Part shown: positions 3,257 to 63,457 of the stretch, in pieces
Numbering within the stretch: position 1 is the stretch's first letter
Layout of the letters: each line of letters starts with the position of its first letter
NCBI RefSeq assembly: GCF_023634845.1
Contig: NZ_JAMLJL010000005.1
Location: 186,001 to 250,000 of the forward strand
Length of the DNA: 64,000 bases
Source: Flavobacterium amniphilum
Lineage (GTDB): Bacteria > Bacteroidota > Bacteroidia > Flavobacteriales > Flavobacteriaceae
Direction: 5' to 3'
Made by a program: the position numbers and the translations under genes
The notes under the pieces: generated by a model
The model's database searches: none
What the model was told of the DNA's origin: nothing
What the model saw: the letters and a program-made list of their open reading frames with translations, nothing else

Positions 3257-4627
3257 TTAGTGCGTTACACTTTCAACATCTTTAGGATTGTGCTTGTGTT
3301 TGAATAAAACCGCAAACGCAATAGCAATGATTAAGGCATACACTGCGAAAGAGAACCAGATAGGATTCCACTCTTTGATAAAGACAGGATTTTTTAAAAC
3401 ATTACCCGCCAATACTTCATTTCCTTTCAATAAATTCTTTATTGCTGAATTATTACTATCTGTTTTCAAATAAGTCAATAAAGCATCCAGATTGACAAAT
3501 TTTAATGTGAAAAACTTATCAATTACGATACCACTCACGATACTTCCCATAACAGCACCAAACCCATTGGTCATCATCATAAATAAACCTTGCGCAGACG
3601 AACGTATTTTAGAATCCGTAGTTGTTTCAATAAAAAGCGACCCTGAAATATTAAAGAAATCGAATGCCATTCCGTAAACGATACAAGATAGAATAATCAT
3701 CCATAATCCACCGGCAGGATCACCATACGAAAATAGTCCGAAACGCAATACCCATGCCAACAAACTGATTAACATTACCTGCTTGATACCGAAACGTTTC
3801 AAAAAGAAAGGAATAGCCAAAATAAACAAGGTCTCTGAAATTTGTGAAATTGACATAATGATTGTCGAATATTCCACTACAAACGAATTAGTGTATTGCG
3901 GAACATTCTTAAAGTCAGAAAGAAAAACATCTCCATACATATTAGTCAACTGCAAGGCTCCTCCCAGAAACATAGAAAAAATAAAAAACAATGCCATTTT
4001 ATAAGTCCCAAACAACTTAAATGCATTAAGACCTAATTTTTCGGATAACGATGCTTTCTCTGAAATCAATCTCTGAGGCAAGCATTTAGGTAATGTAAAA
4101 GAATAAACCCCTAGGGCAACAGCAGCAAAAGCAGAAATATAAAACATATTTGCCGAAGCTTTATTTCCGGTCAAATTAGTAATCCACATTGCTACAATAA
4201 AACCAATTGTTCCCCATACACGAATGGGAGGAAAAACTTTGATAACATCAAAATCATTATTCTTGAGGATTGTGTAAGCAACTGAATTCGATAAAGAAAT
4301 AGTAGGCATATAACACATCATTGCCCCAAAAATAACATAGAAAAAAGTAGTAGAATTTTCAACTTGGGGTAACGTCGCAATAATTATTCCGCCTAAAATA
4401 TGCAAGATTCCATATAATTTTTCGGCATTAATCCATTTATCAGCTATAATACCAGTCAACGCCGGCATTAAAATAGATGAAAAACCTAAAGTGGAAAAAA
4501 TGGCTCCGAATTCAGCCCCACTCCAATGTTTTGTATCAAACCAATAATTGGCAATAGTAATTAACCAGGCTCCCCACACAAAGAATTGAAGGAAACTCAT
4601 TAAGGTTAGTCTAAATTTAATATTCAT
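3257..4627 (-). CDS. MFS permease, nucleoside:H+ symporter (NupG-like) family
   Basis: Twelve-TM inner-membrane carrier of about 456 residues. The start MNIKFRLTLMSFLQFFVWGA is the characteristic opening of the nucleoside:proton symporter family, which is why ATG 4627 is preferred over the reading that starts 18 codons further up. Motifs such as LTGIIADKW in the TM2-TM3 loop fit MFS. A predicted role is nucleoside or related metabolite uptake; the substrate is not provable from sequence. It follows cmk in the same direction with a 66-bp gap and ends at its own terminator, so it may be read with porQ-cmk. No defects seen. Confidence 0.82.
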   Translation of the reverse strand: MNIKFRLTLMSFLQFFVWGAWLITIANYWFDTKHWSGAEFGAIFSTLGFSSILMPALTGIIADKWINAEKLYGILHILGGIIIATLPQVENSTTFFYVIFGAMMCYMPTISLSNSVAYTILKNNDFDVIKVFPPIRVWGTIGFIVAMWITNLTGNKASANMFYISAFAAVALGVYSFTLPKCLPQRLISEKASLSEKLGLNAFKLFGTYKMALFFIFSMFLGGALQLTNMYGDVFLSDFKNVPQYTNSFVVEYSTIIMSISQISETLFILAIPFFLKRFGIKQVMLISLLAWVLRFGLFSYGDPAGGLWMIILSCIVYGMAFDFFNISGSLFIETTTDSKIRSSAQGLFMMMTNGFGAVMGSIVSGIVIDKFFTLKFVNLDALLTYLKTDSNNSAIKNLLKGNEVLAGNVLKNPVFIKEWNPIWFSFAVYALIIAIAFAVLFKHKHNPKDVESVTH

Positions 4628-48282: not shown

Positions 48283-48302
48283 GTATCAGCACACATCTGA
48301 AG

Positions 48303-48321
48303 AGCGGGGAATTTCCCCGCT
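48303..48321 (+). terminator. Terminator of the haem-motif lipoprotein gene
   Basis: AGCGGGGA/TCCCCGCT hairpin with 3-nt loop and T tract. The same 19 bases recur at 54959-54977, at the far side of the rhs locus. Confidence 0.85.
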
Positions 48322-48701
48322 TTTTTATTTTAAACCATTTTACCAAGGTTTTACCCAACTACGCAATCCTGATAGCTATCGGGCTGTAAAAATTTTACCT
48401 GCATCCTCCTTCGTCGGATACGGCTAATTTCCTTTCTTTTGTCTTGACACAAAAGAAACAAAAAGTCAAGTCTGGGATTTTCAGCGGTCAAATATAGTCT
48501 TGAATCCTAAAAGAAAAGAACTCGCCTTTCAGGCTCAAACAGCTTTTCTTTTTACGGATTCTTCAACTATTTGACACTCGCTTCCAAATCCTAAGACTTT
48601 TGTAAATCGTATGTCTTTGACGGGAAAAGAATCTAAATACCAATAATCCTTCAATCTGATAATCTAAATGTCTGACAATCCAAAAATCTGACAATCTAAT
48701 A

Positions 48702-48778
48702 TGTGGCAATTACGTTTTCAATTTTCTTTTTGCCACAACTTTTGTGGCAATTTCATTTTTGAAAACGAAATTGCCACA
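48702..48778. repeat. Double-hairpin repeat, TGTGGCAA family, copy 2
   Basis: 77 bp, bounded by TGTGGCAA...TTGCCACA and containing TTGCCACAACTTTTGTGGCA in the middle. Nearly the same as the copy at 54996-55072 and the reverse complement of 44140-44217. Confidence 0.88.
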
Positions 48779-48784
48779 CTCTTT

Positions 48785-48948
48785 TGCCTTCGAGAGCCTC
48801 AGGCAACGCATTTCGATGGTCGAGTACTGAGCCTGTCGAAGTATGGTTACTGAGCCTGTCGAAGTATGAAGCCACATTCCGATACTTATGCCTTCGAGAA
48901 CCTCAGGCAACGCATTTCGATGGTCGAGTACTGAGCCTGTCGAAGTAT
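48785..48948. repeat. Two 60-bp direct repeats of the CTTCGA/GCCTGTCGAAG family
   Basis: Unit 48785-48844 returns at 48889-48948 with one change. Each holds CTTCGAGAGCCTCAGGC and TACTGAGCCTGTCGAAGTAT, which are partly complementary to each other. A further single CTGAGCCTGTCGAAGTAT lies between (48850-48867). Confidence 0.85.
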
Positions 48949-53258: not shown

Positions 53259-53273
53259 GAGGTATAGAAACCA

Positions 53274-53332
53274 GATAGCGCATTCTATGATAAAAAACAA
53301 CTTTAATTAAAAAATTAAGATGCAAATTTATA
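53274..53332. repeat. Exact 59-bp direct repeat, left copy
   Basis: Identical by eye to 54839-54897 (starts GATAGCGCATTCTATGATAA). The two copies bracket 1.5 kb with two envelope genes and a 164-bp element. Confidence 0.93.
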
Positions 53333-53408
53333 CGTATTTATATATGGAGTTTGTCGGTAATGTATCAAATTAGGGCATGAACTAAAATTTTAAAATAAGT
53401 AATTGAAA

Positions 53409-54828: not shown

Positions 54829-54838
54829 AAGGAGACCC

Positions 54839-54897
54839 GATAGCGCATTCTATGATAAAAAACAACTTTAATTAAAAAATTAAGATGCAAATTTATA
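54839..54897. repeat. Exact 59-bp direct repeat, right copy
   Basis: Identical to 53274-53332; marks the right end of the rhs-associated block. Followed by a remnant start ATGAAAAAGATACTC and a stop. Confidence 0.93.
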
Positions 54898-54958
54898 GAT
54901 ATCTATAAACGGAGACGAACATGAAAAAGATACTCTAAAACTATTTTTTAAACTTAAA

Positions 54959-54977
54959 AGCGGGGAATTTCCCCGCT
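54959..54977 (+). terminator. Duplicate of the 48303-48321 terminator
   Basis: Same 19 bases AGCGGGGAATTTCCCCGCT followed by CTTTTATTTTAA. The surrounding tail also resembles that at 48322, indicating a duplicated segment. Confidence 0.8.
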
Positions 54978-54995
54978 CTTTTATTTTAATCATTT

Positions 54996-55072
54996 TGTGG
55001 CAATTTCGTTTTCAGTTTTCTTTTTGCCACAACTTTTGTGGCAATTTCATTTTTGAAAACGAAATTGCCACA
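54996..55072. repeat. Double-hairpin repeat, TGTGGCAA family, copy 3
   Basis: 77 bp, same orientation as 48702-48778 and differing at a few positions in the first loop. Confidence 0.88.
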
Positions 55073-55104
55073 GTTTTAATGGTAGCTGAGCTGGAGGCTG
55101 AATT

Positions 55105-55207
55105 GGTTACTGAGCCTGTCGAAGTACCGAAGCCACATTCCTAAATAAAAATCTGCGAATCAGCGGTAATAAGATTCCCAACGGTGGCTGAGCGGAGCCG
55201 AAGCCAC
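55105..55207. repeat. Hairpin-repeat sequences of the GGTGGCT/CTGAGCCTGTCGAAG family
   Basis: GGTTACTGAGCCTGTCGAAG near 55106-55125, and the hairpin GTGGCTGAGCGGAGCCGAAG at 55184-55203 whose stem is GTGGCT/AGCCAC. Confidence 0.75.
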
Positions 55208-55230
55208 ATTATCTTTATTGCCTTCTATCC

Positions 55231-55354
55231 TTTTGCCTTCGAGAGCCTCAGGCAACGTTTATCTCGGTGGCTGAGCCTGTCGAAGCCCGATACTTTTGCC
55301 TTCGAGAGCCTCAGGCAACGTTTATCTCGGTGGCTGAACCTGTCGAAGCCCGAT
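55231..55354. repeat. Two 61-bp direct repeats
   Basis: 55231-55291 and 55294-55354, one change. Each contains TGCCTTCGAGAGCCTCAGGC and GGTGGCTGAGCCTGTCGAAG. Related to, but not the same as, the 60-bp pair at 48785-48948. Confidence 0.85.
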
Positions 55355-60067: not shown

Positions 60068-60140
60068 ATTGTGGTTTCGGCTCCGCTCAACCACCTTTCT
60101 CTCACTATAACTCAGCCTATCGAAATATAAAAGCCACAAT
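60068..60140. repeat. Hairpin repeat upstream of the GIY-YIG gene
   Basis: GTGGTTTCGGCTCCGCTCAA (start 60071) forms a 7-bp-stem hairpin with loop TCGGCTCCGCTC; the whole segment is bounded by ATTGTGG/CCACAAT (60068-60074 and 60134-60140). Same hairpin as at the 3' end of the gene. Confidence 0.8.
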
Positions 60141-60162
60141 ACAATTAAACAAAGACGAAGCC

Positions 60163-60477
60163 ATGAAAGGTTATATGTATATTTTAGAATGTGCAGATGG
60201 AAGCTATTATACTGGTAGCACAATAGATTTAAACAAAAGATTGGAAGAACATCAAAACGGTGAAGGTGCAAACCACACCAAAAAAAGATTACCTGTCAAG
60301 CTTATTTATTTTGAAGAATATCAACATGTCTATGAAGCTTTCTATCGTGAAAAACAAGTACAAGGTTGGAGTAGAAAAAAGAAAGAAGCTTTGATTGAAA
60401 AGAATGATAATTTATTAAAAATTGCTTCAGAATGCATGAATGATTCACATTTTAAAAATCTCAAGGAAAAAAAATGA
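60163..60477 (+). CDS. Stand-alone GIY-YIG nuclease
   Basis: 104 residues, single-domain nuclease of the GIY-YIG superfamily (YhbQ/UPF0213-like size). Core pattern [17 protein letters not shown] with Tyr4 and Tyr16-x-Gly18 (the Y-I-Y and Y-x-G parts), Arg26 in DLNKRLEEH, His30, and catalytic Glu63 in [10 protein letters not shown]. No DNA-binding domain attached. Flanked on both sides by the same hairpin repeat: 60071 upstream and 60478, one base after its stop. Lies between an envelope operon and an S15-type hydrolase. Confidence 0.9.
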
Positions 60478-60723
60478 GGTGGTTTCGGCTCCGCTCAACC
60501 ACCATCAACTCCGCTCAACCACCATCGGTTACGATCAAACCTTATCGTTTACGGTGGCTGAGCGGAGTCGAAGCCACATTCTCTTCGGTGGTTTCGGCTC
60601 CGCTCAACCACCATCGGTTACGATCAACACCTTATCAGGAATACGGTGGCTGAGCGGAGCCGAAGCCACATTCTCTTCGGTGGCTTCGGTACTTCGACAG
60701 GCTCAGTAACCAATTCAGCCACC
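60478..60723. repeat. Tandem array of hairpin repeats after the GIY-YIG gene
   Basis: Hairpins at 60478-60503 and 60587-60612 (GGTGGTT/AACCACC stems, loop TCGGCTCCGCTC) alternate with the inverse-type hairpins at 60553-60578 and 60645-60670 (GTGGCT/AGCCAC, loop GAGCGGAGCCGA). These make two direct repeats of about 92-109 bp; a final larger hairpin is 60679-60723 (GGTGGCT...AGCCACC). Confidence 0.85.
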
Positions 60724-63205: not shown

Positions 63206-63231
63206 GGTGGTTTCGACTACGCTCAACCACC
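63206..63231. repeat. Hairpin repeat of the GGTGGTT family
   Basis: GGTGGTT/AACCACC stem, loop TCGACTACGCTC, a variant of the loop flanking the GIY-YIG gene. Confidence 0.8.
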
Positions 63232-63291: not shown

Positions 63292-63327
63292 TGTGGCAAT
63301 TTCATTTTTAATTTTCTTTTTGCCACA
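63292..63327. repeat. Half copy of the TGTGGCAA hairpin
   Basis: 36 bp from TGTGGCAA to TTGCCACA; one of the two hairpins of the 77-bp element, same flank (TAATCTAATA) as at 48702. Confidence 0.8.
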
Positions 63328-63346
63328 GTTTTATGGTGACTGAACT

Positions 63347-63415
63347 GGTTACTGAGCCTGTCGAAGTATGGTTGCTGAGCCTGTCGAAGTATGGTTGCTG
63401 AGCCTGTCGAAGTAT
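63347..63415. repeat. Three tandem 23-bp repeats
   Basis: GGTTGCTGAGCCTGTCGAAG + TAT in three exact steps of 23 bp; the first has A for G at the fifth base. No spacers, so not CRISPR. Confidence 0.9.
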
Positions 63416-63432
63416 GAAGCCAAATTATCTTA

Positions 63433-63457
63433 GGTGGCTTCGAGAACCTCAGCCACC
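63433..63457. repeat. Hairpin repeat of the GGTGGCT family
   Basis: GGTGGCT/AGCCACC with loop TCGAGAACCTC. Confidence 0.75.

Follow-up and report, generated by a model that had tools for sequence, protein, structure and literature searches.

Tail class of small GIY-YIG nucleases tracks the hairpin repeats around their genes in Flavobacterium amniphilum and other bacteria

In the genome of Flavobacterium amniphilum, a gene for a 104-residue GIY-YIG nuclease stands among short hairpin repeats, and the question raised by this locus is whether the enzyme and the repeats belong to each other. The DNA that we analysed is a stretch of 64,000 nucleotides (contig NZ_JAMLJL010000005.1, positions 186,001 to 250,000), referred to here as the window. 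An initial annotation had placed the gene between hairpins, and this was confirmed: the open reading frame lies on the + strand at 60163-60477, with its TGA stop codon at 60475-60477; a hairpin precedes it (60070-60095), and more copies, facing either way, run from 60478 to 60723. The second hairpin, which had been thought to start one base past the stop codon, starts at the first base after it. The protein matches PF01541 (E 8.5e-18) with 64.9 bits against a cut-off of 22.6, which makes it a member of the GIY-YIG superfamily. We show here that the tail class of such nucleases, more than their catalytic domain, tracks the core of the surrounding hairpins. We consider it likely that the nuclease and the hairpins around it are a matched pair, tail matched to hairpin type, and we predict that the enzyme recognises and cuts its hairpin and so would spread and maintain the copies.

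Nuclease tails and the hairpins around them

Relatives of the nuclease were sought in 84,980 species, one genome each. At least 548 were confirmed, and the best 80 named loci, from Bacteroidota, Ignavibacteriales, Calditrichota, Geobacter, Kuenenia and others, were used. The initial annotation had suggested asking whether homologues are flanked by hairpins, and for the most part they are: at least one of three core types lay within 400 bp of the gene in 75 of the 80 named loci. Cores numbered 318 within 400 bp, 29 at 400 to 1,000 bp and 28 beyond 1 kb (in 284,642 bases), and the reversed pattern gave none. Hairpins called de novo, with no sequence assumed, occurred at 4.5 per kb within 300 bp of the gene versus 0.7 per kb beyond 1 kb. 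When the core was loosened, only L069 (gene at the end of a contig) and L114 (truncated frame) were without any copy. A core was present on both sides of the gene in 80 of 110 loci; the nearest copies were inverted in 60 of these (48 as -,+ and 12 as +,-) and direct in 20 (10 as +,+, the window among them, and 10 as -,-).

The type of hairpin follows the tail of the protein, by which we mean its last ~25 residues. Four classes were defined by reading the proteins after the W..KK motif. Class A tails ([AS].C.N) go with the core TCGRC-NNN-GCTC, which has a three-base spacer; class B tails ([ATS].[AT][YHF][RK]D) with TCGRG-NN-CCTC, the G2C type; class C tails ([SA][KR]N[YK]) with TCGRC-NN-GCTC, which has a two-base spacer; and class D tails (KK.F) with TCGRTACA-(inner stem)-CACTC. 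Among the loci from which these rules were derived, agreement was complete wherever both a class and a core could be read (76/76 in the named set, 27/27 in the family set).

The four classes were fixed in writing before 100 test loci were retrieved, of which 97 were new (the overlaps with derivation loci being L172/L034, L257/L128 and L258/L068). A class could be assigned in 49 of the 97, a core lay within 400 bp in 43 of those 49, and all 43 were of the predicted type (A, 15; B, 2; C, 6; D, 20). The reversed-pattern control gave three matches in the test loci, all in L190. One part of the forecast failed. Hairpins had been expected to be absent where no class A to D tail was present, and the four cores were indeed missing from 42 of 49 unclassified loci; the remaining seven had one of them. 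Two of these have near-miss tails (AESRN in L191 and SKNH in L267), L207 carries a frameshift, and the cores at L238, L242, L248 and L252 are unexplained.

The same pairing was seen outside the Bacteroidota. In the class of the Geobacter genome G165, which we take to be the Desulfuromonadia, a three-base core was present at all nine loci with an A tail. Seven of these nine were new (the other two being L099 and L125), although three of the seven contain stretches 90-92% identical to L099 or L125. Of 21 homologues from the same class without such a tail, none had a core apart from two single two-base matches. Taken together, nuclease tail and surrounding hairpin type go together in about 190 of some 250 relatives, and these nucleases are therefore likely to be the missing partners by which several large repeat families are spread or maintained.

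The relationship follows the tail more than the lineage. In a tree of the catalytic domain (153 rows and 76 columns, with 87 of the 148 inner branches unresolved; the SKSYRD tail of L121 assigned to class B by hand), tails A, C and D are each represented on either side of the deepest split, which has 99% support in the Shimodaira-Hasegawa-like approximate likelihood ratio test. The tree requires 39 tail changes and 38 changes of hairpin type, versus a mean of 63 for shuffled tails. Two Aquimarina genomes hold one catalytic domain twice, nearly unchanged, with either an A or a B tail. The A-tail copies (L137 and L142) lie beside three-base hairpins; beside the B-tail copies are four G2C, three three-base and two two-base cores (L253) and three, one and two of the same (L254). 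Tail swaps, with the hairpins changing in step, are the simplest reading of these sequences.

Other features were noted at several loci. In L063, L065, L066, L119 and others, the hairpin 3' of the gene is often in frame, and the end of the predicted protein is encoded by the hairpin (e.g., GGFDSAQPP). Nuclease and hairpins sit between HsdM and HsdS of a type I restriction-modification operon in L109 and L122, upstream of HsdS in L112 and L119, and after the HsdR gene in L129; in L078, GIY-YIG and HsdS domains are joined in one open frame. A 52% homologue in Methylobacterium bullatum (L272), whose tail, judged by eye, belongs to no class, is set among TTCGAGGCC...CACCTCAGGATGAGG repeats with a G2C-like core enlarged by an inner stem, and a 44% homologue in Sphingomonas parapaucimobilis (L273), its tail likewise unclassified, among three-base-core hairpins (GGGCTTCGACTTCGCTCAGCC).

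WK-tail nucleases and CGTC-type repeats

A sister class of tail (W.R.WK..LI..NP, here called WK) is found where the four cores are mostly absent and other palindromes are present. Repeated 14-mers occurred in the flanks of 24 of 34 WK-tail loci versus 14 of 140 far segments. The palindromes beside these genes share the features given for one group of repetitive extragenic palindromes (REPs), the CGTC REPs, in a 2013 survey: a CGTC, TGTC or CCTC tag, an AT-first stem of 8-9 bp and a loop of 4-5 bases (PMC3733652). According to the same survey, which counts C. crescentus, R. palustris and G. forsetii as CGTC-positive, these REPs "apparently lack a dedicated transposase", and their enzyme is named as an open question (PMC3733652).

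Of the 34 WK-tail loci, 25 had a REP that meets the published definition, applied strictly, no more than 400 bp from the gene, versus none of 245 control stretches; the 25/34 is not a blind result, since palindromes had been seen by eye at WK loci before the definition was coded. Each control set gave zero (51 class A-D loci, 80 named loci, 63 far-control stretches drawn from the named loci, 21 tail-less loci from the Geobacter class and 30 loci of Y1_Tnp genes). Two of 15 other unclassified loci had a CGTC-type REP. Both Sinorhizobium WK loci carry such REPs on either side of the gene. A sister tail class is matched to CGTC-type REPs.

A second forecast was made on relatives in a plasmid collection (33 records, of which the 14 that were not near-copies were examined). 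It fitted 10 of the 14, in Rhizobium, Azospirillum, Neisseria gonorrhoeae, Neorhizobium, Shinella, Photobacterium and Aeromonas, and so across alpha-, beta- and gammaproteobacteria. The four that failed the strict definition were from Planktothrix, Sphingobium, Novosphingobium and Spirosoma; GTC-tagged palindromes are visible there by eye. The Neisseria copies (cgtcATTCCCGC-NNNN-GCGGGAAT and a close variant) have the CGTC-1 format, with an 8-bp stem and a 4-base loop, a format equated with dRS3 in the survey (PMC3733652).

There may be a finer correspondence within this class, found post hoc: the CGTC tag was seen only with tails lacking W after NP (14/14 REPs), and TGTC only with tails having it (42/42 REPs). 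Inverted flanking is weak at CGTC-type loci, because among the 12 with copies on both sides only 6 were (+,-), with 4 (+,+) and 2 (-,-). The window's own hairpins differ from these REPs in failing the CGTC definition, and no CGTC-type REP was found anywhere in the window. As to gene context, the Azospirillum nuclease gene L418 lies between sufB and sufC, and that of Planktothrix (L425) lies, per annotation, between an MmeI-type enzyme and the DISARM gene drmA.

The window's hairpins and the enzyme

The window's nuclease belongs to class A, with the motif S-E-C-M-N-D-S-H at residues 89-96 (codons at 60427-60450, + strand), the class that goes with three-base-spacer hairpins; the hairpins beside the gene are of that type. 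The upstream copy (60070-60095, +) and the copy right after the stop codon (60478-60503, +) both have the core TTCGGC-TCC-GCTCAA, with DNA folds of -4.4 and -5.5 kcal/mol, respectively. A partial copy follows at 60504-60523 (+; ATCAACTCCGCTCAACCACC, direct repeat family D2), and repeat, core and fold analysis then identified TTCGAC-TCC-GCTCAG at 60553-60578 (-), TTCGGC-TCC-GCTCAA at 60587-60612 (+) and TTCGGC-TCC-GCTCAG at 60645-60670 (-). The array ends in a longer hairpin of a non-cognate type at 60680-60723 (+), with a two-base-spacer core (TTCGACAGGCTCAG) and a shuffle z-score of -0.94.

Related copies had also been reported near 48.8, 55.2 and 63.2-63.5 kb, and this stands in part. Repeat and core analysis identified a dispersed copy of the cognate three-base type at 55183-55207 (-), and core analysis another at 63206-63231 (+; TTCGAC-TAC-GCTCAA); the 48.8-kb copies and most of those at 55.1-55.3 and 63.35-63.46 kb differ from it. 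These non-cognate copies form a cluster of TTCGAG-NN-CCTCAG and TTCGAC-AG-GCTCAG cores at 48785-48945, a cluster at 55092-55352 that surrounds the cognate copy at 55183, and a cluster at 63335-63457, the last part of which is GGTGGCTTCGAGAACCTCAGCCACC. Their cores (TTCGAC-AR-GCTCA and TTCGAG-NN-CCTCA) are elsewhere paired with nucleases of other tail classes. The core exceeds chance by a wide margin: the window has 7 copies of TTCGR-N(2-4)-CGCTCA (0.06 expected) and, at up to two mismatches, 13 of CTTCGACAGGCTCAG (0.05 expected). In the genome as a whole, TTCGRC-N(2,3)-GCTCAR was found 116 times (76 with a two-base spacer, hence 40 with three bases) and its reversed control not at all; the G2C type, TTCGRG-NN-CCTCAR, was found 46 times and its reversed control once. 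The genome has one close homologue of the nuclease and two others of 37% and 31% identity. At gathering score, Rfam gave nothing on the hairpins and only a tRNA in the window, and PADLOC gave no match.

Some other repeats lie nearby. Another long palindrome family (TGTGGCAATTTCATTTTTGAAAACGAAATTGCCACA and variants) stands beside three hairpin clusters (48702-48783, 54996-55077 and 63292-63327), and similar terminator-like palindromes (GCGGGGAATTTCCCCGC) stand upstream of two (48300-48334 and 54946-54980). An 83-base direct repeat, 92% identical, occurs at 53267-53349 and, 1.5 kb away, at 54832-54914. The 37% homologue in the same genome (L002) adjoins a GAGATGCTTCC...CAGCATGACA repeat that has a TGTC-like tag and no strict CGTC-type stem.

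What is conserved in these hairpins, across loci, is pairing. In the three-base type (298 distinct arm pairs), Watson-Crick pairing was seen at the third stem pair in 89% and at the fourth in 87%, versus 32% and 40% after shuffling, and all four pair types occur at the varying stem positions while the core is conserved. The third pair was likewise Watson-Crick in 81% of the two-base type (29% shuffled) and 81% of the G2C type (32% shuffled). Since the outer pairs covary around a constant core, stem pairing is conserved and stem sequence is free. Folded as single-stranded DNA, five of seven sequences gave an outer stem, an unpaired 5' TC and a three-pair inner stem, with one base opposite the unpaired TC in four sequences and none in one. 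Shuffle z-scores were modest (-1.7 to -2.2 for the 26-mers of the window, -0.9 for the copy at 60680-60723).

The enzyme itself could be active. The initial annotation had found all catalytic positions present, and Y6, Y16, G18, R26 and E63, the catalytic positions of the GIY-YIG superfamily, are invariant in 45 aligned sequences. AlphaFold2, run with the 45-row alignment, gave a predicted local distance difference score (pLDDT) of 88.9, with a tail helix at residues 82-89 followed by low confidence. The nearest solved folds were those of UPF0213 (1zg2, 1ywl) and then Slx1-Slx4 (7cq3, 6seh), and at least 7,970 homologous proteins were found. The nuclease shares the catalytic domain fold of UPF0213 and Slx1, but homologues from the Geobacter class that lack the tail also lack hairpins, and Slx1 carries a zinc finger and is partnered by Slx4 (PMC7017083); the present protein, at 104 residues, has no C-terminal zinc finger and no second Pfam domain.

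A nuclease and hairpin pair and its alternatives

RAYTs (REP-associated tyrosine transposases) are among the closest known systems. As described in PMC2817692 and PMC8266576, RAYTs and their REPs likewise combine a lone gene between short imperfect palindromes, often inverted, with dispersed copies; enzyme and repeat are paired, copy number goes with the cognate gene, and the stem contains a brief unpaired stretch. The enzyme and repeat appear to have evolved together here too (43/43 forecasts, 7/7 new loci in the Geobacter class, tails on either side of the deepest split), and repeat abundance correlates with the cognate gene, with the exceptions given below. The differences are that the enzyme is GIY-YIG (PF01541) and not HUH/Y1 (PF01797 gave no match, PF01541 being the only one), that the repeats of classes A to D are not defined by a GTAG tag, those of the WK class being CGTC-type tagged, and that specificity goes with a short C-terminal tail. 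Because the defining enzyme feature fails, we do not class the locus as RAYT/REP, though it would work alike; by analogy it would be a GIY-YIG counterpart, or "REPtron", with an unrelated enzyme. The resemblance proposed in the initial annotation is thus supported, by the 75 of 80 flanked loci and by copy number, since neither of the two refuting outcomes named there was seen; the action of the enzyme on the hairpins is a matter of prediction. What goes beyond that proposal is the existence of several hairpin types, every one with a nuclease tail of its own, and a link to the CGTC REPs. In the open-licence literature, judged by titles and the opening lines of abstracts, we found no paper tying GIY-YIG to REP, RAYT or CGTC repeats, although a prior mention in subscription journals or preprints is possible.

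Copy number had been put forward as a check on the idea, and it rises with the gene. Across 149 genomes of the family, the median number of two- and three-base cores was 31 in those with an A- or C-tail nuclease (n = 35) versus 3 in those without (n = 114; Mann-Whitney P = 4e-12), genomes whose nuclease matches were unread or had stop codons being counted among the latter. In 39 genomes, medians with versus without the cognate tail were 23 versus 3.5 for the three-base type (P = 0.001), 19 versus 6 for the two-base type (P = 0.03) and 11 versus 2 for the G2C type (P = 2e-5). One genome (G032) has the gene and no strict copies.

The arrays also change by whole units. At a locus shared by two Aquimarina genomes (flank alignments 87% and 93% identical), G177 has a C-tail nuclease with two-base hairpins, and the same site in G179 has 78 bases with a long-type core. 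Three alignment gaps between this pair were examined by eye; one is the presence or absence of the nuclease unit, and the two hairpin-only gaps are too diverged for junctions to be placed. Between L074 and L076 (96.5% identity) the difference is an 85-base unit made up of one inverted hairpin pair, and array length varies between conserved flanks in L073, L075 and L081. In L137, near position 3323, a 24-base insertion that carries a hairpin core interrupts another hairpin within its core, after TTCGACTCCG; the insertion point could mark a cut site, and it is a single case. A search for an empty window site in 61 genomes of the genus, made through the downstream peptidase, found three orthologues (61-63% identity); neither the upstream gene nor the nuclease accompanied any of them in the stretch examined, and a search with the flank of L081 in 398 genomes of the genus gave no clean empty site among the five best loci examined.

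From these sequences we infer that the nuclease cuts and spreads the hairpins, and a possible route can be sketched. The tail would recognise its own hairpin, extruded or single-stranded at a replication fork; the GIY-YIG domain would nick or cut the folded hairpin in or beside its loop; and rejoining or repair at the cut might then copy hairpins into other intergenic regions, one unit at a time or as inverted pairs.

Several observations weigh against such a matched pair. Six of the 49 classified new loci had no core (L200, L209, L210, L214, L255 and L265), and the loci are related, hence not wholly independent. The catalytic tree is poorly resolved, and its strong branches force just two changes each for A, C and D. 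The F. amniphilum genome holds 76 two-base and 46 G2C cores without a close nuclease bearing the matching tails (one tail was read of the two remote homologues), and the two hairpins nearest the window gene are direct (+,+), not inverted. Eight of the 114 family genomes in which no A- or C-tail nuclease was found hold at least 20 copies (G006, G019, G027, G033, G061, G080, G110 and G135), G033 having a broken nuclease copy. Two further genomes, G168 (48 versus 5) and G166 (22 versus 5), have mostly three-base cores, and their only close homologue is B-tailed; in G168, a Kuenenia metagenome-assembled genome (L109), an A-tail partner was possibly lost or missed. The one occupied and empty pair (L333/L355) shows no clean junction or target duplication, and its empty site holds a core of another type. 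Finally, adjacency of gene and hairpins may arise partly through local array growth.

Of the alternatives, the one that survives best, although we think it unlikely, is a housekeeping role, in which the nuclease resolves cruciforms or foldbacks of hairpins that spread by other means and is retained only where hairpins are many. The structure-specific Slx1-Slx4 nucleases are its nearest folds after UPF0213, copy number would track gene presence under either view, and some genomes have hairpins with no cognate nuclease found. It does not predict, however, that the gene should be surrounded by its own hairpin type, inverted in 60 of the 80 loci with copies on both sides, that tails should change along with hairpins, or that gene and hairpins should be present or absent as a unit, as in G177 and G179.

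Less probable still is that the gene is a selfish homing endonuclease, cutting and inserting at hairpins and so gathering them without spreading them. GIY-YIG enzymes do include homing endonucleases, such as I-TevI and I-BmoI, which combine the catalytic domain with a separate recognition part and in this resemble the present protein. The gene is found in intergenic gaps that bear hairpins (hsdM/hsdS in L109 and L122, sufB/sufC in Azospirillum), and it is present or absent between sister species. On the other hand, the target here would be a short dispersed hairpin and not one long homing site, the NCBIfam model for group I intron endonucleases scored 18.6 bits against a cut-off of 56.05, hairpins far outnumber genes (116 cores to one close gene in the F. 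amniphilum genome), inverted pairs and arrays differ by units (the 85-bp unit of L074), and copy number increases with the gene.

We regard it as very improbable that a RAYT (Y1) or another transposase spreads the hairpins with the GIY-YIG gene as a passenger. Y1_Tnp proteins are present in 28 of 39 genomes, but the search, which covered Y1 only, found none in the other 11, including G167 and G171, which have 82 and 80 three-base cores; among 30 Y1 loci one had a core within 400 bp and none a CGTC-type REP, and the tail of a passenger would not forecast hairpin type. The weakest alternative, that the hairpins are ordinary terminators or mRNA hairpins and that nuclease and hairpin types simply follow the same lineages, has in its favour that the loci are related, that tails cluster on the tree (39 changes versus 63) and that short tails yield few classes, but it scarcely survives the occurrence of tails A, C and D on either side of the deepest split with the hairpin following the tail, one genome with two tail classes and two main hairpin types, the recurrence of this pairing in both Bacteroidota and the Geobacter genome's class, the lack of any Rfam family on the hairpins at gathering score, far controls near zero and forecasts that held (43/43 and 10/14).

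Having weighed these alternatives, we return to the matched pair of nuclease and hairpin and to what it would mean. Short palindromic repeats are widespread in bacteria, and whole groups of them are without a known enzyme. We lean towards the broader view that small GIY-YIG nucleases form another major class of enzymes that spread REPs, with no relation to RAYTs, in which a swappable tail of ~25 residues would read the hairpin; such pairs would account both for the CGTC REPs (including dRS3 of Neisseria) and for the TTCG...CTCA hairpins found in Bacteroidota and elsewhere, and swaps of tail would found new repeat families. A single small protein and a single oligonucleotide would suffice to test the origin of these repeats directly, and the loci offer natural nuclease and hairpin pairs for the study of how a nuclease reads a hairpin. 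Our findings also suggest a role as partners of repeats, and not as repair enzymes, for many genes that carry the annotation "GIY-YIG nuclease family protein" in such places.
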